Source of the DNA: Aminomonas paucivorans DSM 12260 | Lineage (GTDB): Bacteria > Synergistota > Synergistia > Synergistales > Synergistaceae | Direction: 5' to 3' | Assembly (NCBI RefSeq): GCF_000165795.1 | Contig: NZ_CM001022.1 | Location: 1,116,001 to 1,180,000 of the forward strand | Length of the DNA stretch: 64,000 nucleotides | Shown here: piece after piece, positions 15,910 through 34,088 of the stretch | Layout: every line of letters begins with the position of its first letter | How positions within the stretch are numbered: position 1 is the first letter of the stretch | The notes under the pieces: model-generated | Database searches by the model: none | Told to the model about the DNA's origin: nothing | Seen by the model: only the letters and a program-made list of their open reading frames with translations | Position numbers and translations under genes: made by a program

Positions 15910-16352
15910 AGGTCATTCTGAAACAGGACGTGAGCAAGCTGGGCAAGAAGGGGGACCTCCTGGAGGTCTCCGACGGGTACGCCAGGAACTTCCTCTTCCC
16001 TCGCGGGCTGGCGGACGAGGCCACGGGGGGCAAGGTGCGGGCCCTGGAGGATCACCGCAAGGCCGCCCAGGTGAAGGAGGACCGCTTGGCCGCCCAGGCC
16101 CGGGAACAGGCCAAGGCACTGGGAGGCAAGCGGGTGGCCCTCTCGGTCAACGCGGGGGAGGGGGGACGCCTCTTCGGAAGCGTCACGAACCAGCAGGTGG
16201 CCGACGCGGTGGCCGCCCAGCTGGGGGTGAAGGTGGACAAACGGGAGATCCGCCTGGAGGCGGTGAAGCAGGTGGGAGTCTACCCCCTGAAGATCCGCCT
16301 GCACCCGGGGGTGGAAGCGGAGCTGACGGTGAGCGTGGAGGCTCAGGCTTGA
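15906..16352 (+). CDS. rplI: 50S ribosomal protein L9
   Basis: Large-subunit protein L9, 148 residues, GTG start 15906 overlapping the upstream stop. N-terminal RNA-binding domain MKVILKQDVSKLGKKGDLLEV...GYARNFLFPRGLA, long central helix (about residues 45-75), and a C-terminal domain with GGRLFGSVT. The stop overlaps the dnaB TTG start (TTGA). Confidence 0.96.
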   Translation: MKVILKQDVSKLGKKGDLLEVSDGYARNFLFPRGLADEATGGKVRALEDHRKAAQVKEDRLAAQAREQAKALGGKRVALSVNAGEGGRLFGSVTNQQVADAVAAQLGVKVDKREIRLEAVKQVGVYPLKIRLHPGVEAELTVSVEAQA

Positions 16353-17701: not shown

Positions 17702-17814
17702 GAGATCCTGTCCCGAAGATCGGGAAAACGGCGGGTTCGAGGCGGATTCCTTTTGGGTAATCTATGGGCCGTGGTGTCGGCGGGTTTCCCGTCGGCGGCA
17801 AAGGAGGTACTCCC

Positions 17815-18936
17815 GTGGCGGTGGACAAGATGTGGGACGTCCTGCGTTTCCTGAAGAGTCCTCAGAGCGAGACCTCCGAGGAACTCCCTGCGGAGTCGAA
17901 GAAGGCGAAACAGCAGATCGACACCCGACTCGTGGAGGCCCTGGAAGCCCTGGAGGCCACCGAGGCGGCGGTGGACCGCAAGATCCTTCAGGAGGAACCG
18001 GCGTCCCCGGGGGTCACCCCCGACGAGACGCAGCTGCTGACCCCTCCCCCGGAGGCCTCTCGGTTCCCCTCCCCCGGAGAGAACGCCGGTTCTCCCGAAC
18101 CTCCCCGGGAAGGGCGCATGAAGGATATCCCCGTGACTCGGGTGCGCCCCAATCCCTACCAGCCTCGCATCCACATGGACGAGGAGGAGATCCGGGAGCT
18201 GGCGGACTCCATCCGGGAGGTGGGAGTGCTTCAGCCCCTTCTGGTGCGTCCCGTGGAGGACGGCTACGAGCTGGTGGCAGGGGAGCGGCGGCTTCGGGCC
18301 GCCAAGGAGGCGGGGCTGGAGACGGTCCCCGCCCTCGTCATGGACGTGGACCCCTTCTCCCAGCAGCTTCTGGCCCTGGTGGAGAATCTCCAGCGCCGAA
18401 ACCTGTCCTCCATCGAGGAAGGCAAGTGTCTGGAGGATCTGATCAACCGGACGGGGTGGAGCCAGACGGAACTGGCCCGACGCCTGGGGCGCTCCCAGGC
18501 TGCCCTGGCGAACAAGATCCGTCTCCTCAAGCTGGACGACGAGGTGCAGCAGCTGGTGGTGGCGGGCCGTCTGGGGGAACGGCAGGCCCGAGCCCTCCTT
18601 CCTCTCGCCCCGGAGCAGCAGCGGGGCCTGGCCTACCGGGCCATCGAGGAGGACCTGAACGTCCGAGACCTGGAACGGCTGGTGGAGGTGGATCGAGAGG
18701 ATCGCCCCGTCTCGGGACGGGGACGCCGGGCCAAGCCCTCGGGGCTGCCCGGTCATCTGGCGGGCCCGGGAGGGCCCACGGGAGAGCTGCTCCAGGATCT
18801 CTCCGCCCTGGTGAACAAGCATCGGGCCCGGGGCATCCCCGCCCAGTGGAAGGTGCGGGAGCTGGCTCAGAACGCTCTGGTGGTGGAGATCATCGTGGAC
18901 CTGAAGGCCCAAGGGGCCTCGTCGAAGGGGGACTAG
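17815..18936 (+). CDS. ParB/Noc family CTP-dependent DNA-binding protein
   Basis: 373-residue nucleoid protein of the ParB/Noc family. After a variable, charged N-terminal region (about 100 residues) comes the ParB N domain (PNPYQPRIHMDEEEIRELADSI), the CTP-binding arginine motif GERRLRAAKEAG near 155-166, the ENLQRRNLSS segment, and a helix-turn-helix WSQTELARRLGRSQAALANKI near 215-235. A C-terminal domain follows a basic linker. GTG 17815 is chosen 7 nt after AGGAGGT. No parA is next to it, which favours a Noc-like role (protecting the nucleoid from septation) or an orphan ParB; sequence alone does not decide. Confidence 0.85.
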   Translation: MAVDKMWDVLRFLKSPQSETSEELPAESKKAKQQIDTRLVEALEALEATEAAVDRKILQEEPASPGVTPDETQLLTPPPEASRFPSPGENAGSPEPPREGRMKDIPVTRVRPNPYQPRIHMDEEEIRELADSIREVGVLQPLLVRPVEDGYELVAGERRLRAAKEAGLETVPALVMDVDPFSQQLLALVENLQRRNLSSIEEGKCLEDLINRTGWSQTELARRLGRSQAALANKIRLLKLDDEVQQLVVAGRLGERQARALLPLAPEQQRGLAYRAIEEDLNVRDLERLVEVDREDRPVSGRGRRAKPSGLPGHLAGPGGPTGELLQDLSALVNKHRARGIPAQWKVRELAQNALVVEIIVDLKAQGASSKGD

Positions 18937-18942
18937 GCCGTC

Positions 18943-20811
18943 GTGGCGGGACGCAAGAGCAAGGAAGCGCACAAGGAAGCGCCGGAACCGCAGCTCCATC
19001 CCCTCACGGGGGAGGTGGTGTCGAACCCCCTGGTTCCGGACTGGATCTTCGAGGGACTGGTCACCCTCTCCCTCACCCTGCCCAACCTGGTCTTCTCGGG
19101 CATGCACTGGTACGACACCCTCCACCTGATGAAGTGGTTCGTCACCCTGGTGCCCGTGGGGGTTCTCTCCGTCCTCGCCGGGGCCCGGCTGGCCCGGTAC
19201 GGCACGGAGCGCACGGGTTTCGTCCTGGACCCCCTGGGAACCCTCTGGGTGGGGGTGCTCCTCTTTCTCTCCCTCCAGCCCTTCTGGGCGCCCCTGACCT
19301 CATCCGTCACCTTCCTCAAGGAATGGCTCACCCTGGGGTCCCTGGTGGCCCTCTACCTGCTCACCTACAACCTCTTCCCCACGGGGAACATGATCCGGGT
19401 GGCCCTGTGGCTGGCGAACCTCAACGCCGCGGTCAACGTGCTCTTCGCGGAACTCCAGATGCGCAGCCTCAACGCCCCCTTTCCGTTCATCATGAACACC
19501 CCGGGGTACTACATCGGCAACACCGCCCAGCAGGAGATGTTCGGCCTGTGGATGGCCATCGCCGTGCTCAACGGGGTGTATCTCCACGTGGCCTACGGGG
19601 GGCAGGAGGCGGCGGGGCGCATCCGACAGGGAGCCCTGCTGCGCTGGGGCAACCTGGTCCTCCTGGCGGTCAACGGCTGGGGCTTGTGGAACTCCACCGC
19701 CCGGGGGGGCATCCTCTCCCTCCTGGTGGGCTTCTCCGTGTTCGCCCTCATGGCCTGGCGGAACTACGACCGGTCCCACCTGCGCCGCCTGGGGGCCATC
19801 GTCCTGGTGCTGGGGGTGGTCCTGGCGGGCAGCTTCGTGGCGGACAAGGCCCTCAACACCGGCCGGGCGACCCTGATGACCCAGAAGACCCTGGACATGA
19901 TCCAGAACCCCGGCTCCGTGGGGCTGCGCATCGGCATCTGGCGAACGAGCTTCCAGATGTTCCTCCAGCACCCCGTGACCGGCGTGGGGCTGGGGCACTT
20001 CAAGTGGAACTACCTCGCCGCCCAGCGGGCCATGTTCGACAAGTACCCCGACGGGGAGTGGCAGTTCACCTACTGGGCCCACAGCGAATACCTCCAGTGG
20101 CTTTGCGAACTGGGGGTCTTCGGCGGGCTGCTTCTGGCGGGTATGGGGCTTTTCTGGCTGGCGGGGTTCGGACGGGCGGTGGCCCGGCGGGAGGCCTTTC
20201 CCCTGGAGATCCTCTGGGCGGCGGGGATGGTCTTCCTCATCGCCACCGACGCGGTCTTCAGCCGTCCTTTCCATCGCGTGGAGATCGCCGTGTGGTTCGC
20301 CGTGGCCCTGGCCCTCTCCGCCCGCTCCTTCCTGCCCTCCCGGCTTTCCTGGACGGAGGTGCGCCACCCGGCGGTCTTCCGGGCCTTCGGGGGGCTGTGG
20401 GCTCTCGTGGCCTTGGGGGGGCTTCTCTTCCTGGGGGACGGCATGCTGGGGGACCGGTACCTCTTCGCCGCCACCCAGAGCCGGGACCCGAACTTCAAGA
20501 TGGGCGCCCTGGACCAGGCGGGCAAGCACTTCATGTCCCGGGAGGAGGCCCTGGAGCAGAAGGGCTATCTGTATCTCATGGTGGCGGAGGCCAACCGGGA
20601 CGGACGGTTCCTCAAGCCCGGCCTGGACCTTCTCTACCAGGCCTTCCGCCAGCGGGCGGAGGCCAAGAAGCTCATGGACCTCATGAAGGGCTACGGCACC
20701 CTGGGGGAGGAGGCCAAGGTCCGTGAGATGACCCGGTTCCTCAAGCCCGGGACCTTCCAGCTCCAGAAGGGCGGTCCCGCCTCGGGGGCTCCCCGAAGCG
20801 CCGCCCCGTGA
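18943..20811 (+). CDS. O-antigen ligase/polymerase-like membrane protein
   Basis: 622-residue membrane protein with about a dozen hydrophobic segments from residue 30 on. The STARGGILSLLVGF motif (near residue 248) and the periplasmic loop with VGLGHFKWNY... and HSEYLQWLCELGVFGG (near 350-395) are the hallmarks of the Wzy_C/O-antigen ligase family. The C-terminal about 110 residues are a soluble helical tail resembling TPR-like repeats. GTG 18943, 6 bp after the noc/parB-like gene; the stop overlaps the next gene (GTGA). Its translational coupling to the type II secretion operon is unusual. It could instead be a polymerase or a glycosyltransferase acting on secreted proteins. Confidence 0.75.
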   Translation: MAGRKSKEAHKEAPEPQLHPLTGEVVSNPLVPDWIFEGLVTLSLTLPNLVFSGMHWYDTLHLMKWFVTLVPVGVLSVLAGARLARYGTERTGFVLDPLGTLWVGVLLFLSLQPFWAPLTSSVTFLKEWLTLGSLVALYLLTYNLFPTGNMIRVALWLANLNAAVNVLFAELQMRSLNAPFPFIMNTPGYYIGNTAQQEMFGLWMAIAVLNGVYLHVAYGGQEAAGRIRQGALLRWGNLVLLAVNGWGLWNSTARGGILSLLVGFSVFALMAWRNYDRSHLRRLGAIVLVLGVVLAGSFVADKALNTGRATLMTQKTLDMIQNPGSVGLRIGIWRTSFQMFLQHPVTGVGLGHFKWNYLAAQRAMFDKYPDGEWQFTYWAHSEYLQWLCELGVFGGLLLAGMGLFWLAGFGRAVARREAFPLEILWAAGMVFLIATDAVFSRPFHRVEIAVWFAVALALSARSFLPSRLSWTEVRHPAVFRAFGGLWALVALGGLLFLGDGMLGDRYLFAATQSRDPNFKMGALDQAGKHFMSREEALEQKGYLYLMVAEANRDGRFLKPGLDLLYQAFRQRAEAKKLMDLMKGYGTLGEEAKVREMTRFLKPGTFQLQKGGPASGAPRSAAP

Positions 20812-21425
20812 GGGCCCCGGGGGGCTCCCGGGGGTTCACCCTGGTGGAGATCCTCCTGGTGGTGGCCCTGGTGGGACTCATCGCCACCTCCGCCCTGGGG
20901 CCCATGATCTTCCTGGTGGAAAAGCTCCGGGCCGTAAGGGACGACTACGGCGCGGAGAGGAAGGTCGTCGCGGCCCTGGAGTCGGTGGTGCAGGACCTTC
21001 GGGACGGCCTGCCCCAGGCGTCCGCCCCCTTTCGTCTGGTGCGCCGGGACGCCCTGGCGGGAGGCCCCGACGATGCCCTCCTGGTGTGGTCCCTGGGTCC
21101 CACCCGGCGGGGAGGCATCCTGGGAACGGTGGTATACACGGTGGTGCGCCAGGACCTGCTCCACCCGGTGGCTACGGGGTTGTACCGGTGGGACCTGAAG
21201 GTCAAGGCCCCGACGGACGTCTCCCTGGAGGGGCTCAAGACGGAGGACGCGCGCCTGGTGCTCCCCGGGGTGGACTCCTTCCGGGTGGAGGCGCGGCAGG
21301 AGAAGGCCTGGGTGCAGGAGGCCGCGGGAAAGCTGCCCCAGGGGGTACGGATCACCGTGACCCGCTGGGGACGCAGCTACCGCCACCAGGACTGGCTCCC
21401 CGTCCAGGAGGAGACCAAGCCGTGA
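20808..21425 (+). CDS. gspJ: Type II secretion minor pseudopilin, GspJ-like
   Basis: 205-residue prepilin-like protein. The leader ends with the prepilin peptidase site SRG-FTLVEILLVVALVGL near residues 8-22 (cleavage after Gly, Glu at +5), then a globular, beta-rich domain of about 170 residues. Size and position before a GspK suggest GspJ, which caps the pseudopilus tip with GspI and GspK. GTG 20808 overlaps the upstream stop. Confidence 0.7.
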   Translation: MRAPGGSRGFTLVEILLVVALVGLIATSALGPMIFLVEKLRAVRDDYGAERKVVAALESVVQDLRDGLPQASAPFRLVRRDALAGGPDDALLVWSLGPTRRGGILGTVVYTVVRQDLLHPVATGLYRWDLKVKAPTDVSLEGLKTEDARLVLPGVDSFRVEARQEKAWVQEAAGKLPQGVRITVTRWGRSYRHQDWLPVQEETKP

Positions 21426-21435
21426 GGCTCCGGGT

Positions 21436-22359
21436 ATGAGGAAACCCGCAAAGGGAGGGTTCATCCTTCTTTCGGTGCTCCTCTCCGTCACGGTGCTCCT
21501 TTCCGCCGCCACGGGCCTGGCCTGGTTCGCCCGGTCGGAGGTGCGGATGACGGAGGAGCGGACCTTCCAGCTTCGGGCGAGGAGCGCCGCCTTCGGGGCC
21601 CTCAAAACGGCGGAGGCGCTCCTGGCGGCGAGGAGCGAAGATTACGACAGCCTCGCCGAGGCCCCCTACCGTCCCGGGTCGGTGAAACCCCTTCCCCCCG
21701 CAGGGGGGCTGACGGTGCGCCTCTCCCTGGTGCCCCTGGACGACCGGATTCCCCTGGGGTCCCTCTTCCTGCCCGACGGCTTCACCGTGAAAAAGGAGTT
21801 CGAAGGCCCCTGGGAGCGCCTTTTCCTGCTCCTGGGCAAGCCGGAGCTGGGGCCGAAGCTGCTGGACTACATGGATGGGGACACGGTGCCTCGCATGGGG
21901 GGCAAGGAGGAAGACGGGTACCTCAACCGTCCCGCCGAGGATCTCTCGCAATTCCTGAACTGCCCCGGGGTGGACCGGAAGCTGCTGTACGGCACCAAGG
22001 CCAAAGCGGGGCTTCGTCGCTTCGTCACCCCCTTCTGCGGGGAGAAGATCAACCTGAACACCGTGGACCCGGGGGTGCTGGCCCTTTTGGACGAGCGTCT
22101 GGGGGATCGGGAGGCGAAGGCCCTGGCGGCGCTTCGGATGACGGCTCCCATCAAGAAGGTGGAGGACCTGAAACGGATTCCCGGTTTTCCGGAGGACGTG
22201 CTCCCCCGGATCACCAACGTGGTGGGAGTGGCGAGCCGGTACGTCTCCGTGCGGATCCAGGTCCGCCAGGGAAGGTTGCAGAGGCGCTTCGAGGCGGTGC
22301 TGGAGCGTTCCGGAACGGGGCCCAAGGCATCCTGCACCCTGGTGCGGTGGGTGGAGTAG
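21436..22359 (+). CDS. gspK: Type II secretion minor pseudopilin GspK
   Basis: 307 residues, the large pseudopilin that sits at the pseudopilus tip. Leader KGG-FILLSVLLSVTVLLSAA near residues 7-24; position +5 is Ser rather than Glu, a known GspK peculiarity. The C-terminal half has the GspK SAM-like region with INLNTVDPGVLALL and VEDLKRIPGF. The start is ATG 21436, 10 bp after gspJ. Confidence 0.85.
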   Translation: MRKPAKGGFILLSVLLSVTVLLSAATGLAWFARSEVRMTEERTFQLRARSAAFGALKTAEALLAARSEDYDSLAEAPYRPGSVKPLPPAGGLTVRLSLVPLDDRIPLGSLFLPDGFTVKKEFEGPWERLFLLLGKPELGPKLLDYMDGDTVPRMGGKEEDGYLNRPAEDLSQFLNCPGVDRKLLYGTKAKAGLRRFVTPFCGEKINLNTVDPGVLALLDERLGDREAKALAALRMTAPIKKVEDLKRIPGFPEDVLPRITNVVGVASRYVSVRIQVRQGRLQRRFEAVLERSGTGPKASCTLVRWVE

Positions 22360-22399
22360 AGTCAGCCCGGCGAGGACAGGCCGGACGAAGGAGGAACGG

Positions 22400-23527
22400 A
22401 TGGAAAGACGGGCGGCGCCTCCGCAGTTTTCGTTGGTAGACGATCCACTCCCGCAGGGAAGGGGGGTCCGGGTGGTGCTGGGCGCTCCCCGGACCCTCTC
22501 GGTGCAGCCCTTCGCCTTCCCCTTCTCCCAGCCGGGAAAGGTGCGGGAGGCCCTGAGGCTTCGCCTCCTCCCCCTGTTGGGAGAGGGGCTTGCCCAGACC
22601 CTGGTGGTCCCCCTGGTGACGGAACGCCGGGGCAAGGGGTGCTCCGGCGTCGCCTGGATCGCCCGCCGGGACGAGCTGGAATCCCTCTCCGCCCGGGTGG
22701 GAGAGGCCCGTTTCTGGCCAGCCCCCCTGGCCCTTCTGGGGGAGGAGCCCGACGGGGTCCTGGGGGTGGTGGAAGACGACGGGGTCGCCGCCCTCTTCGT
22801 GGCCGGCGGGATCCCCCGAGGCTACCGGTGGCAGCGCCTCTCGGGGCAGAGCCCCGAGGACCTTCGGGAAAACCTGCTTGCCCAGGGGGATGCCCTGGGC
22901 TGCCCCGGCCCCTGCCGGGTGGTGGACCTGCGGGACCCCTCCCAGCGGGAACGCTTTCTGCAGGAGGCCCCTCGGGGTTACGGGGCCCTTCCCTTCCTGG
23001 GAGACTTCGACCTGTCCCTCCGCGGGGCCGCCCACGCCGAATCCCGCAGCCGCTCCCTCCACACCCTGCGGCGCCTTTCCTGGATCCTGGGCCTGGGGGG
23101 CGGGCTCTTCTGCCTGGCCGCGGGGTACCAGTGGCTGGACGGATTCCGCACCCAGGAGACGGCGACCCAGGCCCAATACCGGGTCTTCCGGGGAGCCTTC
23201 GGGGAGGAATCCCCCGGGGATCCCCTGATGGAGGCCAAGCGGAGGCTTCGCCGCGCCGGGGCTTCCTCCTCCGGCCTTTCCTTCGGAGACCTGCTCGCCC
23301 TGATGGGACAGGCCTTCAAGGACCAGGGCCAGGGAGTTCGCCTGGAATCCCTCCGCTACGGCCCCGACAAGTCGGAGATCCAGGGTTCCGCCTCCACCAC
23401 CGAGGCCGTCCAGGCCTTCCGCAAGCGGGTGGACGACGGCCCCCTTTCCGCCGCCATGGGGGACCTCCAGCAGATCCCCGGCGGAGGGTTCCGATTCGTT
23501 CTCACCCTGAAGGAGGACCGCCCATGA
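22400..23527 (+). CDS. gspL: Type II secretion inner-membrane protein GspL-like
   Basis: 375 residues with a soluble N-terminal part, one transmembrane helix (about residues 230-250, WILGLGGGLFCLAAGY) and a periplasmic C-terminal ferredoxin-like domain. This is the GspL/PilN-fused layout, linking the GspE ATPase to the periplasmic GspM. Sequence similarity to GspL is weak by eye, so the call leans on architecture and position between gspK and a GspM-like gene. ATG 22400 after GAAGGAGG; the stop overlaps the next ATG. Confidence 0.7.
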   Translation: MERRAAPPQFSLVDDPLPQGRGVRVVLGAPRTLSVQPFAFPFSQPGKVREALRLRLLPLLGEGLAQTLVVPLVTERRGKGCSGVAWIARRDELESLSARVGEARFWPAPLALLGEEPDGVLGVVEDDGVAALFVAGGIPRGYRWQRLSGQSPEDLRENLLAQGDALGCPGPCRVVDLRDPSQRERFLQEAPRGYGALPFLGDFDLSLRGAAHAESRSRSLHTLRRLSWILGLGGGLFCLAAGYQWLDGFRTQETATQAQYRVFRGAFGEESPGDPLMEAKRRLRRAGASSSGLSFGDLLALMGQAFKDQGQGVRLESLRYGPDKSEIQGSASTTEAVQAFRKRVDDGPLSAAMGDLQQIPGGGFRFVLTLKEDRP

Positions 23528-24012
23528 ACGCCAAGGAACTGAGGGAATCCCTCCAGGAGCTTCGCCAGGATCCGGAGGGGCGCAAGGCCGCCACGGCCCT
23601 GCTGTTGGGGGTGCTGCTGTGGTGCTTCGGCGGGGGCATCTGGCTTCAGGCTTCCGCCCAGCAGGCCCAGGCACTGCAGGTCCGGCGAGACCTGCGGGAG
23701 CTGACGGACCTGGCGGCCCAGGCCCTGTGTCTTCCTGTGGGAGGAGCTGCGGCGACGCCGGAGGATCCCCTTTCCGCTCTCACCCAGACGGTGGAGTCCA
23801 TGAAGCTCAAGGACCGGATGGTGCAGCTCGCCTCCAACCCCGCGGGGGCGGTGGTGCAGCTCGACGGTCTCTACGGGGAGGAGTGCACCGCCCTGGCCCA
23901 GGAGCTGATCCGCCGGGGGCTGACGGTGCGCACCGCGGAGCTGAAGGCCCTGCCTTTCCAGAAAGACCGCCTCCTCTCCGTGACCCTGGTGGTGGGGGGG
24001 AACAAGCCATGA
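23524..24012 (+). CDS. gspM: Type II secretion GspM-like protein
   Basis: 162 residues: short cytoplasmic start, a single transmembrane helix (about residues 22-42, TALLLGVLLWCFGGGIWLQ) and a periplasmic ferredoxin-like domain. This matches GspM, which dimerises with GspL. Assigned by size, topology and order; ATG overlaps gspL by 4 bp (ATGA). Confidence 0.65.
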   Translation: MNAKELRESLQELRQDPEGRKAATALLLGVLLWCFGGGIWLQASAQQAQALQVRRDLRELTDLAAQALCLPVGGAAATPEDPLSALTQTVESMKLKDRMVQLASNPAGAVVQLDGLYGEECTALAQELIRRGLTVRTAELKALPFQKDRLLSVTLVVGGNKP

Positions 24013-24632
24013 GGATGCCCGCCCTGTCCGTGGACCTGCGGGCCTGGGTCCGCCCCGCCCTGGGGGGCCTGGGTCTGCTGCTGGTCTTCCTCCTGGGCCT
24101 GTGGGCCTTCTTCCCCTGGGGTGCCGCGGGGGAGCTGCTCTTCGCCCGCCTGTCCCTGAAGGCGGCGGGCTCCGGCGTCGTGGTCTCCGCCGCCGCCCAG
24201 GAGGTGGAGGGCCGCTTCGCCCCCACCCTGACCTACCGGGGGGTACGGCTCAAGACCTCCTTCGTGGAGGGCTTCTGCCGGGAGGCCGCCCTGAAGCTCT
24301 CCCCTGCGGGACTGCTGGGAGGGGCCGCCCGGGCCGTCCTGACCCTGGATCGGGGAGCCCTGGTCCTGCCGGATCGGCAGGAGGCCAAGTGGACCGACGG
24401 GGGTGCGCGGTTCCGGGTGTCCCCGTCGGAGCTGCGCATGGAGGATTTCCGCCTGCGGGGTTCCTTCTCCGCCGACGGCTCCCTGATCCTGGAGCTGCCC
24501 CAGGGGACCCCTCGGGGCTGGGACGTCTCCCTGAAGGTGCCCGACCCCCTGGACCGGACCCTGAACATGGTGCAGTACCTGATGCCCCTGAAGCGCACTG
24601 CCCCCGGGGCCTGGAGGACCCAGGGACCATGA
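24009..24632 (+). CDS. gspN: Type II secretion GspN-like protein
   Basis: 207 residues with one N-terminal transmembrane helix (about residues 17-40) and a periplasmic beta-rich region, consistent with GspN, an accessory protein found in some T2SS operons, often in organisms with a GspC-D pair nearby. ATG 24009 overlaps gspM by 4 bp. Function in the family is poorly defined; assignment rests on order and topology. Confidence 0.55.
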   Translation: MRMPALSVDLRAWVRPALGGLGLLLVFLLGLWAFFPWGAAGELLFARLSLKAAGSGVVVSAAAQEVEGRFAPTLTYRGVRLKTSFVEGFCREAALKLSPAGLLGGAARAVLTLDRGALVLPDRQEAKWTDGGARFRVSPSELRMEDFRLRGSFSADGSLILELPQGTPRGWDVSLKVPDPLDRTLNMVQYLMPLKRTAPGAWRTQGP

Positions 24633-25576
24633 GGCTGCCGGAGAAACTTCGCTCCCTGCGCCTTGCGCCCTTCGGTTCGGGGGACGGGTCCTCCTGGAAG
24701 GACCGCGTCAAGGACCCCGCCCGTTGGCTCGCCTGGGGGGAGGCGGCGGCTCCGTGGCTTGCCGCGGCCCTGGGGGCTCTGGCCCTGGCCTGGGGGGCCT
24801 CGGGGTTCCTGGAGGGCCGCTGGGCCCGCCTGGCCGCCGGCGACCTGGGAGCCCAGATCGAAGCCCTGTCCCAGAATCCGCCCCGCACGGTGGCCCAGGA
24901 CCCCGCCCAGAAACTGGAGGTCTTCAAGGAGGCCAACCCCTTCGCCCTGACCCAAAAGGCCGGGGAGGCGGGGACGCAGACCGCCGCAGACGCCCTGGCC
25001 CTGGCGGGGACCCTGCCCGGCGTGGGGGCGTGGATCCGCGCCGACGGCTCCACCGCCCTGGTCCTGGTGAACCAGGAGTTCCGGGGCTTCAAGCTGGTGC
25101 GGGTGGATGCGGACCGCATCTACCTGGTGCGGGACGAGACGGTCCACAAGGTCTACCTCTACCTGTCCGGCTCCACGGCCGCGGCGACGCCGTCCCCTCC
25201 CGCGGGGACTCCGGGGGGGACCGTTGCGCCCCCCGGGGCCGTACAGGCCCCTGGGGAGGGCAAGGACGGCTCCCTGTCCCGGGAGCTGCTGGACAAGCTC
25301 CTCATGAACCCCTACGACGAACTCTCCAAGGTCCGGCTGATCCCCCAGACTTCCGGGGACGTGCAGGGAATGCAGGTGGCGGCCATCCAGCCCGACAGCC
25401 TGCTGGGGCAGCTGGGGGTGCAGGAGGGGGACACCATCCAGTCTCTCAACGGGGTGCCCATCCGCAACCTGAGCGACGTGTCCAACGCGGTGAACTCCCT
25501 CCTCGGAGGGGCCCGCATGGACGTCACGGTGGTGCGGGAGGGCAAGCCCGTCAACCTGGGGTACGCGGTGAAATGA
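24629..25576 (+). CDS. gspC: Type II secretion GspC with PDZ domain
   Basis: 315-residue inner-membrane protein that contacts the secretin. One transmembrane helix near residues 40-60, a homology region (about 100-190, with GVGAWIRADGSTALVLVNQ...YLVRDETVHKVYL), a Pro/Gly/Ala-rich linker, and a C-terminal PDZ domain (about 225-315) containing GMQVAAIQPDSLLGQLGVQEGDTI and NGVPIRNLSDV. The order HR domain plus PDZ is diagnostic for GspC. ATG overlaps gspN by 4 bp. Confidence 0.87.
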   Translation: MRLPEKLRSLRLAPFGSGDGSSWKDRVKDPARWLAWGEAAAPWLAAALGALALAWGASGFLEGRWARLAAGDLGAQIEALSQNPPRTVAQDPAQKLEVFKEANPFALTQKAGEAGTQTAADALALAGTLPGVGAWIRADGSTALVLVNQEFRGFKLVRVDADRIYLVRDETVHKVYLYLSGSTAAATPSPPAGTPGGTVAPPGAVQAPGEGKDGSLSRELLDKLLMNPYDELSKVRLIPQTSGDVQGMQVAAIQPDSLLGQLGVQEGDTIQSLNGVPIRNLSDVSNAVNSLLGGARMDVTVVREGKPVNLGYAVK

Positions 25577-25920
25577 GCCGAGGTCTCCCCCTTCCCGCAG
25601 GGCGGCGCGGAGGCTTCACCCTCGTGGAGGTGCTGGTGGCGGTGGCCATCCTGGGGCTCTGCGCCGTGGGGGCCCTGCGGTTGGCCCTGGTCTCCCAGCG
25701 GGCGCTGGACGAGGCCCGGACCCGAAGGGCCTTCCTGGAACAGGTGGCGGAGATCCAGATGGGGCTGCGGGACAAGACCCTGTCCGACAACGGCACCAGC
25801 GGCGACCTGGAATGGCGTCAGGCCCAGGCCCCCAGCCAGACGGGGGAAGCGTCCCCCGCGAAGTGGCGGGAGGTGGAGATCCGAGCGCCCGGAAGGACCC
25901 TGAGGGTGGTGGTTCCCTGA
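25573..25920 (+). CDS. gspI: Type II secretion minor pseudopilin, GspI-like
   Basis: 115-residue prepilin-like protein with the cleavage site RRGG-FTLVEVLVAVAILGL near residues 13-28 and a short beta-rich body ending in the REVEIRAPGRTLRVVV pattern. Its size matches GspI; GspH and GspG are less likely because no GspG-type C-terminal calcium-site motif is present. ATG overlaps gspC by 4 bp. Confidence 0.7.
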   Translation: MSRGLPLPAGRRGGFTLVEVLVAVAILGLCAVGALRLALVSQRALDEARTRRAFLEQVAEIQMGLRDKTLSDNGTSGDLEWRQAQAPSQTGEASPAKWREVEIRAPGRTLRVVVP

Positions 25921-26015
25921 CCACCTCCGGCGGAGCAAGGCGAAAGAGCGCCCCCCTTCGGGGAGGGCCGGATCGGTCTCATCCGAAAGTTCGTACCTTT
26001 GAAGGAGGTTCCCCC

Positions 26016-27962
26016 ATGCGCGCAAGGCTTCTTCGTACCCTGGGCCCCCTGGCCCTGATCCTTCTCCTGGCGGCCCCCCTGTGGGCCCAGGACCCCCCGG
26101 CGGATCCCACGGACGAACGCAACCTCGTCCAGGCCGCCCGGGCCATGCGTTCCACCGGCAAGGTGCAGCTCAACTTCAAGGACCTGGAGCTGGCCAAGTT
26201 CATCCGGTTCATGTCCGAGCTTCTGGGGGAGAACCTGGTGGTGGACCCGGGGCTCAAGGGCAACGTCTCCGTGGTCTCCCCCCGGGCCATCTCCTTCAAG
26301 GAGGCTCGGCAGGTGATGCTCTCCATCCTGGAGATGAACTCCCTCACCCTTCAGAACATGGGGGGCTACTCCAAGGTGCTCCCCGCCTCCGCGGGCCCTT
26401 CCCAGGACTTCTCGGTGCGCAAGAGCCCTCGGGGCCCCGGACCGGGGGAGCAGGTGGTCACCCAGGTGGTGCCCCTGGACTACGTCAAGGCGGGGTACGT
26501 GGTGGAACCCGTGAAGGCGGCGGTCCAGGGCATCGGCATCCAGCCCCTCCAGTCCCAGATGGGGGTGCTCCTCACGGGCAAGGCCACCCTGGTGCAGCGG
26601 GCGGTGAGCCTCATCCAGGCCCTGGACGCCTCCGACAGCATCCGGGCCGCCAAGGTCTTCTCCCTCCAGTACGCCTCCCCCAAGCTCCTGGAGGGGCAGT
26701 TCAACGCCCTCTCCAAGGACCCGGGGGCCAAGGTGACGGGCATCCTGGCGGTGGCGGACGAGCCCAGCAAGAAGATCGTCCTGGTGGGCACCCGTCAGGC
26801 CCTCCGGGAGGCCCAGCGCATCATCCAGGCCCTGGACGTGCCCGTGCAGTCCACCAACTTCCGGGTCTACAAACTCCAGAACTCCGACGCCAAGAAGGTG
26901 GCGGAACAGCTTTCCCAGATCCTGGCGGTGGCGGCCCGGATGCAGCCCGACGCCAAGGGGACCATGCCCACCACGGTGGTGCCGGACCTGCCCACCAACA
27001 GCCTGGTGTTCTCCGCCCCGCCGGAGCAGTACGCCGCCATCGAACGGGTTCTGGAACAGCTGGACATCCAGCCCAAGCAGGTGCTCCTCCGGGGGCTGGT
27101 GGCGGAGGTGAACCTCACCAAGCTGGACCAGGCGGGGGTGGACTGGGCCGCCTGGGGGGGCGGTCTCACCGGGGACGGGGTCTTCGCGGGGCAGGTGCAG
27201 ATGGGCAACAGCTCCATCCCCCCCATGTTCCTGGAGTGGTTCCGGGACCTCACCAAACACGACACGGTCACCTACGACCGCTTCGGCAACGCCATCACCA
27301 CCACGGTCTACGACAGCAAGGCCCTGGTGTACGGCTACGTGAAGCTCCTCAACCGCTTCGACGCCATCAACGTGCTGTCCATGCCCCGGATCATGTGCAC
27401 CGACAACCTGGAAAGCTCCCTCCAGGTGGGACAGGTGATCCCCCAGCTCAAGGGCAAGCTCTCGGAGGTGAACAACCCCAGTGCCGTCCAGAGCAGCTAC
27501 GAGTACAAGGACACGGGGCTCATCCTCAAGGTGACCCCCCACATCCGCAGCGGCAACCTGGTGGCCCTGGAGATCGAACAGCGCATCGAAGAGGTCCTCA
27601 CCGCCTCCACCGTGGACACCCCCACCACCACCAAGAGGGAGATCAAGACCAACGTGCTGGTGGAGAACGGCCAGACCATCATCCTGGGAGGCATCATCAA
27701 GGAAGCGGAGAAGTCCATGAAGAGCCGGGTCCCCGGCCTCTCCTACATCCCCCTCCTGGGGAACCTCTTCACCTCCACGGTGAAGCAGCGGGAGAAGGTG
27801 GACCTGATGATCTTCCTCACCCCCTACATCCTGGAGAACCCCCGCCAGGCGGTGGACGTGTCCGTGCAGATCTCCTCGGGGGACCAGGTCCCCAGCGCCG
27901 CGGAGGCCGAGACCACCCTGCGCCTGGACAAACTGTTCAAGGACGCGGTGAGGAAGCAGTGA
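26016..27962 (+). CDS. gspD: Type II secretion secretin GspD
   Basis: Outer-membrane secretin forming the exit pore, 648 residues. Signal peptide LLRTLGPLALILLLAAPLWAQ (cleavage near residue 23). Then the N0 domain (QLNFKDLELAKFIRFMSELLGENLVVDPGLKG), N1/N2/N3 repeats and the secretin domain with VPLLGNLF near residue 580 (IPLLGNLFTSTVKQREKVDLMIFLTP). No C-terminal pilotin-binding lipobox was noted. ATG 26016 follows AAGGAGG. A 95-bp gap separates it from gspI. Presence of a secretin shows a diderm envelope. Confidence 0.95.
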   Translation: MRARLLRTLGPLALILLLAAPLWAQDPPADPTDERNLVQAARAMRSTGKVQLNFKDLELAKFIRFMSELLGENLVVDPGLKGNVSVVSPRAISFKEARQVMLSILEMNSLTLQNMGGYSKVLPASAGPSQDFSVRKSPRGPGPGEQVVTQVVPLDYVKAGYVVEPVKAAVQGIGIQPLQSQMGVLLTGKATLVQRAVSLIQALDASDSIRAAKVFSLQYASPKLLEGQFNALSKDPGAKVTGILAVADEPSKKIVLVGTRQALREAQRIIQALDVPVQSTNFRVYKLQNSDAKKVAEQLSQILAVAARMQPDAKGTMPTTVVPDLPTNSLVFSAPPEQYAAIERVLEQLDIQPKQVLLRGLVAEVNLTKLDQAGVDWAAWGGGLTGDGVFAGQVQMGNSSIPPMFLEWFRDLTKHDTVTYDRFGNAITTTVYDSKALVYGYVKLLNRFDAINVLSMPRIMCTDNLESSLQVGQVIPQLKGKLSEVNNPSAVQSSYEYKDTGLILKVTPHIRSGNLVALEIEQRIEEVLTASTVDTPTTTKREIKTNVLVENGQTIILGGIIKEAEKSMKSRVPGLSYIPLLGNLFTSTVKQREKVDLMIFLTPYILENPRQAVDVSVQISSGDQVPSAAEAETTLRLDKLFKDAVRKQ

Positions 27963-29440
27963 GCGCCCCCTTCCCCGCCCCGGAGCGGGTCCTGCCCCTC
28001 ATCCCGCCCCAGGTGAGCCTGGACGTGCTGCGGGAGCTGCTGCTGGTGCCCCTGCGGCAGGAGGAGGGGGTCCTGGTGGTGGCGGCCCCCTCCCTGGACC
28101 GGCTGGCTCAGGCGCAGCTCCTGGGGGCCGCCCAGGGGTGCGCCGTGGAGCTGGAGATCCACCCGGAACCCCGCATCGGCGAACTGATCCGGGCCCTCTA
28201 CGACCTGAAGACCGGGGTGGCGGAGGAGACGGTGAGCGCCGTGGAGGGCATCGACGACCTCTCGGACCTGGTGCGCCTGGAGGTCTTGAGCGACTCCGTG
28301 GACGCCCCGGTGATCCGGCTGGTGAACGGCCTCATCCTGGAGGCCCTCAAGGTGCGGGCCACGGACATCCACCTGGAGCCCTACGAGGACCGCTTTCTGG
28401 TGCGCTACCGGGTGGACGGGGTGCTCCGGGACGCCTACTCCCTCCCCAAGGGACACCAGGCCCCCCTCACCAGCCGGGTCAAGGTCATGGCCCGCATGGA
28501 CATCGCGGAGCGCTTCGTCCCCCAGGACGGACGCATCGGCATCGCCCTGGCGGACCGGGCGGTGGACATCCGGGTCAGCTCCCTGCCCACCCCCCACGGA
28601 GAGCGGCTGGCCCTGCGCCTCCTGGACAAGGCCCGGGGACTGCTCACCCTGGAGAGCCTGGGCATGGCGGCGGAGGAGCAGCGGGCTCTGGAGCGGCTCA
28701 TCGCCCACCCCTACGGCATGATCCTCTTCACGGGGCCCACGGGCTCCGGGAAGAGCACCACCCTCTACGCCATCCTTCAGTCCCTGCGTCGGCCGGAGGT
28801 GAACCTCCTCTCCGTGGAGGACCCGGTGGAGTACGACCTCCCAGGGATCGGGCAGGTGCAGGTGAACGAAAAGGCCGGGGTCACCTTCGCCTCCGCCCTG
28901 CGCACCATCCTGCGGCAGGACCCGGACATCATCATGATCGGGGAGATGCGAGACTACGAGACCGCCCACATCGGCGTGCAAGCCTCCCTCACGGGGCACC
29001 TGGTGCTCTCCACCCTGCACACCAACGACTCGGTCAGCGCCGTGGGGCGCCTGGCGGACATGGGGGTGGAACCCTACCTCATCGCGGGGTCCCTCCTGGG
29101 GGTGGTGGCCCAGCGGCTGGTGCGCCGTCTCTGCCCCCACTGTCGTCGGGAGATCCCCGTGCCTCCCTTCCTGGCTCGATTGGGTGCGAAAGGGGCCTTC
29201 GGTCCCGGGGGCTGCGAGGCCTGTGGGGGGTCCGGCTATCGGGGGCGACTGGGGCTGTACGAACAGTTCGACGTGGACGGCCCCATCCAGGCGGCGGTGG
29301 CGGAGAACGCCCCCGCAGGAGTCCTGCGGGACCTGGCCCGGGAGCGGGGCCTGCGCACCCTCCTGGAGCTGGGGGTCCTGCGGGTGCAGGAGGGACTCAC
29401 CTCCCCGGAGGAGGTCCTCCGGGTGGTTGGGGAGGCCTAG
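27959..29440 (+). CDS. gspE: Type II secretion ATPase GspE
   Basis: Cytoplasmic hexameric ATPase that drives pseudopilus assembly, 493 residues. N-terminal GspE_N-type domain, then Walker A GPTGSGKSTTLYAIL near residue 255-268, Asp box SVEDPVEYDLPGIGQVQVN, Walker B ALRTILRQDPDIIMIGEMRD, His box TGHLVLSTLHTND, and a tetracysteine zinc module (CPHC...CEACGGSGYRGR). GTG 27959 overlaps the gspD stop. Confidence 0.95.
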   Translation: MSAPFPAPERVLPLIPPQVSLDVLRELLLVPLRQEEGVLVVAAPSLDRLAQAQLLGAAQGCAVELEIHPEPRIGELIRALYDLKTGVAEETVSAVEGIDDLSDLVRLEVLSDSVDAPVIRLVNGLILEALKVRATDIHLEPYEDRFLVRYRVDGVLRDAYSLPKGHQAPLTSRVKVMARMDIAERFVPQDGRIGIALADRAVDIRVSSLPTPHGERLALRLLDKARGLLTLESLGMAAEEQRALERLIAHPYGMILFTGPTGSGKSTTLYAILQSLRRPEVNLLSVEDPVEYDLPGIGQVQVNEKAGVTFASALRTILRQDPDIIMIGEMRDYETAHIGVQASLTGHLVLSTLHTNDSVSAVGRLADMGVEPYLIAGSLLGVVAQRLVRRLCPHCRREIPVPPFLARLGAKGAFGPGGCEACGGSGYRGRLGLYEQFDVDGPIQAAVAENAPAGVLRDLARERGLRTLLELGVLRVQEGLTSPEEVLRVVGEA

Positions 29441-29443
29441 ACG

Positions 29444-30601
29444 GTGCCCTTCTACCGGGTCAGCGCCTCCGATCCGACGGGCCGCACCCGAACCCTTCGG
29501 CGGGAGGCTCCCTCCGAGGGGGTGCTGCTGCGCACCCTGGGAGACCAGGGCTACGTGGTCCTCTCGGTGCGGCAGGAGGCGGCCCGAAGGACCGGGGGGG
29601 GCTCCAGGCCCCTGAACCTGGAGCAGCACGAGCAGTTCTGCGCCGCCCTGGCGGGGTTCCTGAAAAGCGGCTTACCCCTGGCCCAGGTGCTGGGCCTGCT
29701 GGAGCGGACCTCCTCCAAGAACCAGCGGCTGGGGGACCTGTATCGGACCTTGCGGGAATCCGTGGAGTCCGGCCGTTCCCTGGCGGTGGCCCTCAAGGAG
29801 AGCGGTCTCTTCCGGCCGGTGCTCCTGGGGCTGGTGGAATCCGCCGAGGCCTCCTCCAAGCTGCCGGAGATCCTGGACCGGGCGGCTCGACTCTTCGGGG
29901 ACGAGCTGAAACTGCGGCGCAAGATCCAGTCCGCCGTCACCTACCCCCTGGCCATGCTGGTCATCGGGGTGGGGGTGGTGGGGTTCCTGCTGACCTACGT
30001 GGTGCCCCGGCTCACGGGGCTGTTCGCGGAGATCGGGGCGGCGCTGCCCCTGCCCACCCGGGTGCTTCTGGGAGTGGCGGGGGTGGTGAAGGCCCTGGCC
30101 TGGCCGGTCCTCCTGGGGCTCCTTCTGGGGTGGCTGTGGCTGCGCCGTCGCGGAGGGAACGTGAACTGGCCCTTCTTTCGGGGGACCCGGCAGCAGCTCG
30201 CACTGGCGCTGGTGTTCGCCCACCTGTCCACGCTGCTGAAGTCCGGCATCCCCCTGGTCCAGGCCCTGGAGCTCACCGCCCCCATGGATCGGGACCGAAA
30301 TCGCTGGCGGGCAGTGGCGGAATCGGTGCGCATGGGGTATCGTTTCTCCCAGGGTTTGGAACGGCAGGGCGGTTTCCCGGAGGATCTCCTGGCGGTGCTG
30401 CGCATCGCCGAGTTGGGGGGGGACCTGCCGGACTCGCTAGAGAGGCTGGGGGCCACCTGCTGGGAACGATCCCAGGCGAGTCTGCAGCGCTTGGCGGACC
30501 TGGCGGAGCCGGCGATTATTGTCGTTTTAGGTGGGATGGTAGCTTTTGTCGTGGTGGCGGTGCTTCTGCCGGTGTTCGACCTCTCCAGCCTGATCCGGTA
30601 G
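29444..30601 (+). CDS. gspF: Type II secretion inner-membrane protein GspF
   Basis: Polytopic platform protein, 385 residues: two homologous T2SSF domains (about 60-180 and 265-380), each with cytoplasmic four-helix parts (FCAALAGFLKSGLPLAQVL and LALVFAHLSTLLKSGIPLVQALEL) and three transmembrane helices overall. C terminus VAVLLPVFDLSSLI is typical. GTG 29444, 3 bp after gspE. Last gene of the operon; gspG does not follow, which is abnormal since gspG usually sits next to gspF. Confidence 0.93.
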   Translation: MPFYRVSASDPTGRTRTLRREAPSEGVLLRTLGDQGYVVLSVRQEAARRTGGGSRPLNLEQHEQFCAALAGFLKSGLPLAQVLGLLERTSSKNQRLGDLYRTLRESVESGRSLAVALKESGLFRPVLLGLVESAEASSKLPEILDRAARLFGDELKLRRKIQSAVTYPLAMLVIGVGVVGFLLTYVVPRLTGLFAEIGAALPLPTRVLLGVAGVVKALAWPVLLGLLLGWLWLRRRGGNVNWPFFRGTRQQLALALVFAHLSTLLKSGIPLVQALELTAPMDRDRNRWRAVAESVRMGYRFSQGLERQGGFPEDLLAVLRIAELGGDLPDSLERLGATCWERSQASLQRLADLAEPAIIVVLGGMVAFVVVAVLLPVFDLSSLIR

Positions 30602-30631
30602 AAAATCCCTGCGAAGTTGCGAGGAAAGCTC

Positions 30632-30659
30632 TGGACAAGGGGCGGACCCCGTGTTGTAT
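30632..30659 (+). promoter_or_regulatory. Candidate promoter for the Synergist-CTERM gene
   Basis: TGGACA (30632-30637), 16-bp spacer, TTGTAT (30654-30659). Both hexamers are imperfect, but this is the most AT-rich point downstream of gspF. A start near 30667 would give a roughly 250-nt leader. Confidence 0.35.
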
Positions 30660-30917
30660 GTGTTAAAGCCCTTGCCCGGGGCGGCACGTCGGGAAACAGT
30701 GGGAAACCGGCGCCCACCACCCCGCAGGGCAGAGGCTCCCGCCGCCGGACGGCGGCAAGAGGTACGGCGGCTTCGGCCGCAGACATGCGGGGTTTCGTGC
30801 GGTGGCTGATCCTTTCGATGACCTGAATGGAGGTGAGGCAGAGGGTACGAAAGACCTCGGGGCTTGTACCTTTGTGCGGGTGATGGTGAACCTTGAAAAT
30901 TGAAAGGAGTGTGCGAT
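30660..30917 (+). other. Long structured 5' leader, no gene
   Basis: About 258 bases without a convincing reading frame between gspF and the surface-protein gene. It holds compact potential hairpins: GCCGCC-GGAC-GGCGGC (about 30750-30765), GCGGC-TTCG-GCCGC (about 30766-30780) and an alternative CCGCA-GACA-TGCGG partner that competes with the second. The last 60 bases before the ribosome site (AAAGGAG, 30903-30909) turn AT-rich. I could not match a known riboswitch class by eye; it may be a cis-acting RNA or simply a GC-rich leader. Confidence 0.4.
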
Positions 30918-32936
30918 TTGAAGAAAAAGTCTTTGTTTGCACTCGTTGCCATGGTAGTGTTCATGGCAACTGGGATTGCTTTCGCCGTTGCTCGGTTTGT
31001 CGGTCCTGCTGACCTCAGCGCGGCAGGTGATCCGACGGCGTGGTCGATCTATCAGTCCTACGACGCTGCGGTTCCTGTTGCTGGAGCTGGAGAGTATGCC
31101 TTCTCCGGGGTTAACATCAATCTTGGTATCAACAGCGACGACAATGTGAATGACGGGACTACTGCCGCCGGGCAGCGTAGGGCGTTGACTGTCTTCGGAG
31201 ATTTCGGCGTGGCGGACGGTGCATTTCCTGCAGCTGCGCCGCGTATTTTCCGCGGGCTTGTGACCTCGGGAGATAACGGAGCTGCGGCTCCCGCGCTTAC
31301 AAATTATGTGAGCGTCGATAAGTTTGTCTTTAACACGATTTCCACCACGACAATTCGGCCTGTGTTCCGTTTTGATGCGCAGCCGAATGCTGCAGTGCCT
31401 ACCTCCTCTGTCGATATCCGCATTCTCGACAGCAATGGCAACAACGTTCTTGAGCGCGTGGTGCATCTCAACACGAATCCCGCCGTCAACATCGATAAGG
31501 CGACCAGCGTGGATGTTCCCGTGACTCTTAACGTGCCTGCCACTGTGGAGGCGGCCCCGGTTGCCTATACGTTGGAGCTTTCCTGGGCTGCTGGTGTGGC
31601 GGATGGTGGAGTGACCGCAGTCGGAGCTAAGCGGACCATGACCTATCCCATCCTCGTGGATCGGGTTGCCGCTCAGGATGCTGACCTCACCACTTCCGCG
31701 TTTATTAACGTCAATAACGATGCCGATGGCGACTTCAACAATGCCTTGGGGCAGAGAGTTGCGCTTCATCACTTTACCACCCCCCAGACGGCTCCTGTGA
31801 CGACGAATATGGGGCTCGTTCCTAACGTCAATCTGGATGGCACTGCGGCGAATATCGATTTCTTTGTGCGCAATGATGGTCGTACCACGATGAGGAAGAC
31901 CACTGGGTATGATGGCCTTTACTCCTGGACCAACAATGCGGGCACTCTGCGGGCCTACCGGATGCGTACCCTTCTTGGCGTTGGCACGGTCTCTACGGAT
32001 CTGTTTACTGGGTTTGTTGGCCGTGAGCGGATTGCTGTCGCTGCCGGTACCTGGGCTCCTAAGCTTGCTAACGGCTGGGAGACCACGACGTATAACTGGA
32101 CTTCTGCGGCCCTTCCTGCCGTGGCGACGATGGCGTTCGATGCCCGTACCGATGTGGCGAACGTCATGATTCGGAATGCTGTTCTGGCCAACAATGCTGC
32201 TGTGTTTAATCGCACGACCTACTTCCCGAGCATGGATGTGAATGTGACCATGGCTCAGGCTCAGGGCGTGACGGGGCATGTTTCCGCTCCGAGCATTTCC
32301 GCGAAGAACGTGGCTCCCGTCGCCTTTGAGATCCCCGTGCCCAATCCTGCCCGGGACGACGAGGTGTATGTCTATCCGATGCAGGTGACCCTCCGGGTCC
32401 GCGCGGCGGATGTGGACCGGGTGTGGGGCACCACCAGCAACAAGTGGCGGACTATCCAGAACAAGTTTGCGAACCTCAATGCGACTGGCGGACTGAAGGC
32501 GTTCCTTGATGCCATCGGCCCCCAGAAGGTGGTTGGCGGTCAGACCTATGCCCTTGCGAACGTGGCTCCTGCTGCGGATCTGCCCAAGTACTTCCAGGTC
32601 CGGAACAACGCTACGGATTCCGAGTACTACATCAGCTTCTTCATGGTCATCGCCGACATGGCGAAGCCCACGGGTCTGAACGACGTGGTCGCCGTGAACA
32701 ATATGTTCATCGTCTACGACGGCCAGAAGAACAACGTGCTGGTGGATCCCATCTACGCTGGCGAGCCCACCACCACGACCCCGACGCCCACCTCTGGACC
32801 GACCCCCACGGCTGGCCCCACGGCCACCCCGACTCCGGGCAGCTCCAGCAGCAGCGGCGGTTGCTCCGCCTTCGGGTTCGCCCCGATGGCCCTCCTGCTT
32901 CTCGCCCCGCTGGCTCTTCTTCGCAAGCGCGGCTAA
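30918..32936 (+). CDS. Secreted surface protein with Synergist-CTERM sorting domain
   Basis: 672 residues from TTG 30918, 8 nt after AAAGGAG. N-terminal signal peptide KKKSLFALVAMVVFMATGIAFA. The long middle region is beta-type, Ala/Val/Asn/Thr-rich, without a recognised enzyme motif. The C terminus has a Thr/Pro/Gly-rich linker (about residues 615-640), then SSSSSGGCSAFGF, a hydrophobic helix and RKRG: the Synergist-CTERM arrangement of Gly-Cys-Ser motif, transmembrane segment and basic stop. Such domains are thought to be processed by an intramembrane protease and to anchor proteins at the surface. Codons are far richer in T-ending forms than neighbours, consistent with transfer or a strongly expressed surface-layer type protein. 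Position directly after the T2SS operon suggests it is a T2SS cargo. Confidence 0.8.
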   Translation: MKKKSLFALVAMVVFMATGIAFAVARFVGPADLSAAGDPTAWSIYQSYDAAVPVAGAGEYAFSGVNINLGINSDDNVNDGTTAAGQRRALTVFGDFGVADGAFPAAAPRIFRGLVTSGDNGAAAPALTNYVSVDKFVFNTISTTTIRPVFRFDAQPNAAVPTSSVDIRILDSNGNNVLERVVHLNTNPAVNIDKATSVDVPVTLNVPATVEAAPVAYTLELSWAAGVADGGVTAVGAKRTMTYPILVDRVAAQDADLTTSAFINVNNDADGDFNNALGQRVALHHFTTPQTAPVTTNMGLVPNVNLDGTAANIDFFVRNDGRTTMRKTTGYDGLYSWTNNAGTLRAYRMRTLLGVGTVSTDLFTGFVGRERIAVAAGTWAPKLANGWETTTYNWTSAALPAVATMAFDARTDVANVMIRNAVLANNAAVFNRTTYFPSMDVNVTMAQAQGVTGHVSAPSISAKNVAPVAFEIPVPNPARDDEVYVYPMQVTLRVRAADVDRVWGTTSNKWRTIQNKFANLNATGGLKAFLDAIGPQKVVGGQTYALANVAPAADLPKYFQVRNNATDSEYYISFFMVIADMAKPTGLNDVVAVNNMFIVYDGQKNNVLVDPIYAGEPTTTTPTPTSGPTPTAGPTATPTPGSSSSSGGCSAFGFAPMALLLLAPLALLRKRG

Positions 32937-32979
32937 GCAGGTCCGGAAATCCTGGTAACACCTAGCATCTAGCGCCACG

Positions 32980-33014
32980 AACCGGGCGGGCCTTCGGGCC
33001 CGCCCGGTTTTTTT
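32980..33014 (+). terminator. Strong intrinsic terminator
   Basis: 13-bp perfect stem AACCGGGCGGGCC (32980-32992) with its complement (32997-33009), TTCG tetraloop, then seven consecutive Ts. Ends the Synergist-CTERM transcript. Confidence 0.95.
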
Positions 33015-33117
33015 GATCTTCCCTAATGACCCGCTGCCACCAGGGTCAGTTCCTCCCCGCCGTTCCTTGCACGATGCGGGAAGGGGTGATACATTTGTTA
33101 TACAGGGGGTGATGGCC

Positions 33118-33351
33118 ATGTCCGCGCTTACGGCAGTTCGTTTGGGAGAAGCTCTGGAGGATCGACTGGCCCGAACGGCCCGTCGCATGAACCGCCCACG
33201 AAGCGGCCTCATCCGAGAGGCCCTGGAGCGGTACCTGGACGACCTGGAGGACTACGCCCGAGCAGTGGAGGCATGGGAGGTCCATGTGGCCTCGGGAGAG
33301 GAAACCCTTTCCCTGGAGGCCGTCAAGGCCAGCCTTGGCCTGGAGGCTTGA
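33118..33351 (+). CDS. RelB-type ribbon-helix-helix antitoxin
   Basis: 77 residues. N-terminal ribbon-helix-helix DNA-binding fold (TAVRLGEALEDRLARTARRMNRPRSGLIREALERYLDDLEDY) followed by the toxin-neutralising tail EETLSLEAVKASLGLEA, a pattern typical of RelB/StbD-like antitoxins. ATG 33118 is chosen over 33112 because GGGGG at 33105-33109 is well spaced for it. It probably represses its own promoter; an AT-rich stretch with TTATAC (33098-33103) lies just upstream. The stop overlaps the toxin start by 17 bp. Confidence 0.82.
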   Translation: MSALTAVRLGEALEDRLARTARRMNRPRSGLIREALERYLDDLEDYARAVEAWEVHVASGEETLSLEAVKASLGLEA

Positions 33352-33613: not shown

Positions 33614-33624
33614 TGAGGGTGCAG

Positions 33625-33662
33625 GCCCCCCCGCCTCCAAAAGGGTTTTTGGGGGGGCTTTT
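33625..33662 (+). terminator. Terminator after first toxin-antitoxin pair
   Basis: GCCCCCCC (33625-33632) pairs with GGGGGGGC (33651-33658) around an inner CC-AAAA-GG hairpin, followed by TTTT. It lies 12 bp after the toxin stop. Confidence 0.7.
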
Positions 33663-33754
33663 GCCTTGGGGGTTCCCTGTACCGCCGCTTCCGAGCCGAG
33701 GATCCGTCCTTCCGCTCGGGGTTCCATCCATGGGGTCTGGAAGGGGGGTGAGTC

Positions 33755-34069: not shown

Positions 34070-34088
34070 GAAGAGGGGGGAGAAAAGA

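Follow-up and report, generated by a model that had tools for sequence, protein, structure and literature searches.

Type II secretion as a probable route to the cell surface for Synergist-CTERM proteins in the synergistete Aminomonas paucivorans

In this study, we analysed a 64,000-nucleotide stretch of the genome of Aminomonas paucivorans DSM 12260 (bases 1116001-1180000; hereafter the window), a member of the phylum Synergistota whose 2.63 Mb genome is assembled in one contig. The window carries a type II secretion system (T2SS) operon, gspJ-K-L-M-N-C-I-D-E-F, lying between lig, a gene for a membrane protein that resembles O-antigen ligases, and a gene starting at window position 30918 that encodes a protein with a C-terminal Synergist-CTERM sorting tag (the 30918 protein). 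An earlier note on this DNA had read the arrangement as a dedicated surface-display pathway including the ligase-like protein. We propose that the operon encodes the general T2SS of this synergistete and that one main job of the system is to bring Synergist-CTERM proteins to the outer surface, a reading that, taken as a whole, we hold to be likely. Export of tagged proteins by the T2SS is the best reading because mrtS, the gene of the intramembrane protease MrtS, clusters and co-occurs with the tag and the T2SS, and because this pattern joins with previous work on MYXO-CTERM and GlyGly-CTERM proteins. Our phylum-wide comparison covered 188 Synergistota genomes, in which families are labelled f1-f10, genomes G000 onward (G000 being the window's own genome) and loci by L numbers.

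First, we showed that the source genome holds a whole set of tagged proteins and a single candidate enzyme for them. Fifteen proteins exceed the TIGR04564 cut-off, against none in the control genomes, so that the search for further Synergist-CTERM proteins suggested in the earlier note returned 14 besides the 30918 protein. At least five of the 15 are peptidases, of families M14, C69, S8 and C10 (two), and the others include a VWA protein, an FG-GAP protein and a beta-helix protein. The CPBP-type intramembrane protease that the note also proposed to look for was found exactly once: it is MrtS, which scores 243 bits with NF040589 (cut-off 130), the model that NCBI names as the protease of the Synerg-CTERM system, and 66 bits with the MrtX model, below the MrtX cut-off. 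MrtS was reportedly predicted as the enzyme for the Synergist-CTERM tag by Haft, in J Bacteriol in 2024. Since the tagged clients are many, several of them peptidases, the pathway does not serve the 30918 protein alone, and the 30918 gene is moreover not conserved as a neighbour of the T2SS. As a separate observation, three of the tagged peptidase genes (C10, C10 and S8) lie close together at G000:C1 244500-252200, where they form a surface-peptidase cluster.

The three components of the proposed route are distributed together across the phylum. GspL and the tag are both present in 126 genomes and both absent from 44, GspL alone being found in 5 and the tag alone in 13. The corresponding counts (both, first only, second only, neither) are 124, 4, 15 and 45 for MrtS and the tag, and 119, 12, 9 and 48 for GspL and MrtS. 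Tag calls depend on the threshold, and Fisher's test, with p values of about 1e-24 to 1e-25, takes the genomes as independent, which they are not. T2SS, MrtS and tag are all missing in 38/188 genomes, belonging to families f1, f2, f3, f6, f7, f9 and f10: every sampled f3 and f9 genome, nearly all of f10, genera within f1, f6 and f7, and one f2 genome. This spread over several lineages suggests that the trio was repeatedly lost jointly.

Furthermore, mrtS adjoins the T2SS operon in three lineages. In G138 and G139, mrtS lies immediately upstream of gspJ on the same strand; G007 (L164), G009 (L177) and G010 (L163) have a compact arrangement in which a divergent mrtS is followed by a Synergist-CTERM gene and then by gspJ to gspF; and in G129, G131 and G132, mrtS and a pseudopilin gene are found near the T2SS operon. 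Under random placement, the probability of finding mrtS within 11 kb of the T2SS in at least 3 of 42 genera (an approximate number of genera) is about 0.009. T2SS flanks hold moderately more tagged genes than expected: 4 clear and 3 weak cases in 41 loci, for an expectation of 1.0. Altogether, the part of the earlier claim that concerns surface display through the T2SS is supported by this co-occurrence and by the clustering in some lineages, whereas its ligase part is not supported and its word “dedicated” did not hold.

The 30918 protein itself is a genuine member of the tagged set. As stated in the earlier note, a signal-peptide protein with a GGCS-type C-terminal sorting domain follows the operon: the TIGR04564 score exceeds the cut-off, a GGC motif, a transmembrane helix and a basic tail are present, and an N-terminal signal peptide is recognised by eye. 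The preferred start is the TTG at 30918, behind an AAAGGAG ribosome-binding site. It lies 316 nt past gspF, and the gene is therefore not coupled to gspF. We consider it quite possible, though at somewhat under even chances, that this gene is a chance neighbour, brought beside the operon by a recombination or insertion event, with no special link to it, which would be compatible with a general role of the T2SS in exporting tagged proteins. Indeed, homology of the protein within Synergistota is limited to residues ~406-672, and no homologue of the part from residue 1 to about 405 was found in the 187 other genomes. Codons 1-480 (window 30918-32350) have a GC3 of about 0.6 (0.52-0.68) vs 0.83-0.95 in neighbouring genes; the final 190 codons are closer to the native composition and are in part common to a paralogue. 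High expression was rejected as a reason for this odd codon use, as the genome's EF-Tu gene lacks it. None of the other genomes examined has this gene at the corresponding place, where most relatives have no tagged gene. Two observations speak against a purely accidental position: the moderate enrichment of tagged genes beside T2SS operons over the phylum, and a search for a terminator-like hairpin between gspF and 30918, which found none. The mosaic composition is most simply read as that of a surface protein that is recombinant or was acquired recently.

A riboswitch or structured leader before this gene was rejected, since Rfam gave no match up to E 1 and the fold z was -0.7. An AF2 model of the protein alone had a pLDDT of 33 and was not used. 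Beyond the tagged gene, the region up to the DUF3084 gene (window 33115-34596) holds two ParE-type toxin genes (33284-33613 and 34342-34596), one gene each of the RHH antitoxin-like and NTP_transf_2 (MNT-like) types, and a small unassigned ORF. These toxin-antitoxin-like modules occupy a junction that is empty in G174 and G175.

The distribution across the phylum could also be explained without transport of the tagged proteins. T2SS, MrtS and tag could be an ancestral trio lost together in reduced genomes, with the T2SS secreting soluble proteins and the tagged proteins reaching the surface otherwise or staying in the inner membrane. Many of the T2SS-less genomes are indeed small (1.2-2.0 Mb), and transport by the T2SS is itself a deduction in our own proposal. 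We nonetheless find this explanation unlikely: some of the genomes in which all three are missing measure 2.4-2.8 Mb (G032, G116-G119), and simple joint loss does not sit well with mrtS and tag genes adjoining the T2SS in separate lineages or with tagged genes being commoner than expected in its flanks.

Several observations nevertheless weigh against T2SS export of the tagged proteins. In the source genome, a distance of more than 180 kb separates mrtS from the window, and gspG is in a third place. The genomes compared are not independent of one another, co-occurrence and clustering are no proof of transport, and the T2SS may also have untagged clients. The pattern is also broken by a few near-complete genomes: G029 and G101 have T2SS and MrtS and no tag at E<=0.001, and G083, though its assembly is fragmented, has tag and MrtS and no GspL. 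Finally, the AF2 model of GspN (pLDDT 87), which has an N-terminal transmembrane helix and a curved beta sheet, gave non-significant Foldseek matches to the PDB: the best rows were LptA at E 2.3e-3, none reached 1e-3, and no AsmA or GspN entry was among the matches listed. In the VIA comparison, its best Z was 9.3, to an unrelated lipoprotein.

That the operon encodes a T2SS is clear from profile searches, which detected GspD, GspE, GspF, GspC/L/M and pseudopilins. All the genes named in the earlier note, from the Wzy_C gene through gspJ-K-L-M-N-C-I-D-E-F to the Synergist-CTERM protein, were found where it had placed them (Table 1). Synergistota-specific NCBI models already exist for GspL, GspM, GspN and GspC, and the window proteins exceed all four cut-offs; GspK, GspE and GspF fall below NCBIfam cut-offs, yet are clear from Pfam or from their E-values. 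The description of the unit as translationally coupled applies to most junctions, with 4-nt overlaps at six of them (lig/J, L/M, M/N, N/C, C/I and D/E), and not to J-K, K-L, I-D and E-F, where gaps of 10, 40, 95 and 3 nt, respectively, separate the genes. The major pseudopilin gene gspG is encoded outside the operon, at G000:C1 ~315.8 kb, about 0.8 Mb away; the operon alone is thus not a full T2SS. A first GspL alignment was too diverse for the pattern search and gave way to that of a closer set. What looked like an in-frame stop codon within gspL in family f6 proved to be an artefact, its coordinates in G047 being those of the gene's own stop codon within the match.

Table 1. Features of the window around the T2SS operon (positions in the window).
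Feature	Position	Strand	Evidence
dnaB, replicative helicase, start approximate	16349..17701	+	Pfam DnaB_C 348 bits
parB-like gene	17764..18936	+	Pfam ParB_N 109 bits, HTH_ParB
lig, Wzy_C / WaaL-like membrane protein, 622 aa	18943..20811	+	Pfam Wzy_C 73 bits, cut-off 31.7
gspJ-like minor pseudopilin	20808..21425	+	N_methyl above cut-off; T2SSJ 20.1 bits, below cut-off 28
gspK	21436..22359	+	Pfam T2SSK above cut-off; NF037980 97 bits, below cut-off 130
gspL, Synergistota type	22400..23527	+	NF041617 250 bits, cut-off 150
gspM, Synergistota type	23524..24012	+	NF041618 196 bits, cut-off 120
gspN, Synergistota type	24009..24632	+	NF041619 243 bits, cut-off 140
gspC, Synergistota type, C-terminal PDZ	24629..25576	+	NF041616 370 bits, cut-off 200; PDZ_6
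pseudopilin, I-like	25573..25920	+	N_methyl 33.5 bits
gspD secretin, start ATG	26016..27962	+	Secretin 147 bits, GspD N0, 3x Secretin_N
gspE ATPase	27959..29440	+	TIGR02533 574 bits, below cut-off 630
gspF	29444..30601	+	T2SSF 175 bits; TIGR02120 212 bits, below cut-off 424
672-aa signal-peptide protein with Synergist-CTERM	30918..32936	+	TIGR04564 39.5 bits, cut-off 22.5
Synergist-CTERM domain: GGCS motif, hydrophobic helix, RKRG tail	32850..32933	+	Sequence, TIGR04564
Terminator-like hairpin, strong, 14 pairs and T run, after tagged gene	32979..33010	+	

We also investigated lig, whose product belongs to the WaaL / O-antigen ligase superfamily by its Wzy_C score and its conserved histidine. 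H380 falls in the column of a WaaL histidine in the comparison with PDB 7tpg and is present in 70/71 lig relatives, with or without a T2SS; the remaining one has an unread X there. The gene lies directly upstream of gspJ in 31/40 T2SS loci. It also belongs to a conserved block, argS-divIC-ssb-DUF2232-rplI-dnaB-(parB)-lig (argS, divIC and ssb named by eye from the sequence), and in the window the parB-like gene ends 6 nt before it. This block, lig included, is present at 11 loci of genomes in which the search for a GspL-SYNERG T2SS found none (G008, G030, G031, G032, G130, an incomplete genome, G140, G174, G175, G176, G182 and G186), and lig sits beside dnaB/parB, with the T2SS elsewhere, in G131, G132, G025, G026, G029 and G009. 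In a tree of 71 ligases, the window copy groups with those of the T2SS-less G174 and G175, its nearest sampled relatives, with a support of 100/100. Their order, parB-lig-DUF3084, resembles that of the window minus the T2SS, the tagged gene and the small toxin-antitoxin-like genes. Conversely, G017 (L093) has dnaB-parB-T2SS without an intervening ligase, which is encoded elsewhere in that genome, and the ligase is not found at loci where mrtS clusters with the T2SS (L073, L084-086, L095). In family f6 (L058-L066, L071, L076), lig stays with the T2SS and dnaB/parB are no longer seen beside it.

Thus, lig is probably just an old neighbour of the T2SS and a member of the dnaB-parB neighbourhood, and a functional tie to the T2SS and tag pathway, as put forward in the earlier note, is not supported; a functional need for lig is not favoured because the gene is kept in T2SS-less genomes and in genomes with the T2SS elsewhere. 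That its product attaches a sugar or surface anchor to exported Synergist-CTERM proteins is very unlikely despite the overlap with gspJ, the frequent adjacency and the f6 linkage, which may reflect some selective tie, in view of its retention without the T2SS, its T2SS-less nearest relatives, a histidine kept regardless of T2SS status, and the ligase-free T2SS loci. Very unlikely, too, would be a sorting-tag display pathway with a ligase of its own, in which a T2SS-coupled WaaL-like enzyme glycosylates or anchors the tagged proteins. The lig product is more probably an envelope polysaccharide ligase or polymerase that shares a transcription unit with the T2SS and need not act on its clients.

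For T2SS export of tagged proteins, we can propose the following route. The precursor would cross the inner membrane by Sec and be held there by its C-terminal helix. The invariant cysteine of the GGC motif is probably lipidated, and MrtS, as the sole CPBP protease of the genome, would cut the C-terminal helix off, presumably at the Cys motif. The T2SS would then take up the folded protein and carry it to the surface, the 30918 protein being one client among many. Comparable routes were described elsewhere: MYXO-CTERM proteins of Myxococcota reach the surface by myxosortase and T2SS (PMC11980579, and Sah 2020 cited there), and in Vibrio the GlyGly-CTERM / rhombosortase tag is found on T2SS clients retained at the surface (PMC6219818, PMC13393428). 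GspN and the PDZ domain of GspC may plausibly assist with cargo that is lipidated or anchored at the surface; GspN was shown to be required for lipoprotein delivery to the surface in Acinetobacter (PMC12802150), and the GspC PDZ for secretion of the GlyGly-CTERM protein VesB in Vibrio (PMC12369372).

The Synergist-CTERM tag and MrtS are already published; the clustering with the T2SS and the ligase control may be new. The source locus adds another example to a kind of pathway already known, and the comparison supplies useful new support from genomes for its T2SS step. For a phylum that has seen few experiments, this favours the idea of Cys-type C-terminal sorting tags and the T2SS forming one surface-display route, as was shown in Myxococcota. 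It also removes a tempting and probably wrong link to the O-antigen-ligase-like gene. The compact loci with mrtS, a tagged gene and the T2SS together (G007, G009 and G010) are natural minimal loci for experiments.

Among known systems, the locus is closest to the Synergist-CTERM / MrtS system (TIGR04564, NF040589), of which it has the same tag and the same protease, both above curated cut-offs. It is similar to the MYXO-CTERM / MrtX system in its Cys-containing tripartite tag, its CPBP protease and the presence of a T2SS in the same genome, but differs from it in phylum, tag model and protease subfamily (MrtS over MrtX by the scores given above), and in Synergistota transport by the T2SS is deduced. 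The GlyGly-CTERM / rhombosortase system likewise marks T2SS clients retained at the surface with a C-terminal sorting tag, but its protease is a rhomboid and its tag is without an invariant cysteine. Finally, lig shares with the WaaL O-antigen ligase (PDB 7tpg) the Wzy_C domain and the aligned histidine, but the similarity is weak (E 8e-7) and the window protein has about 200 extra C-terminal residues.

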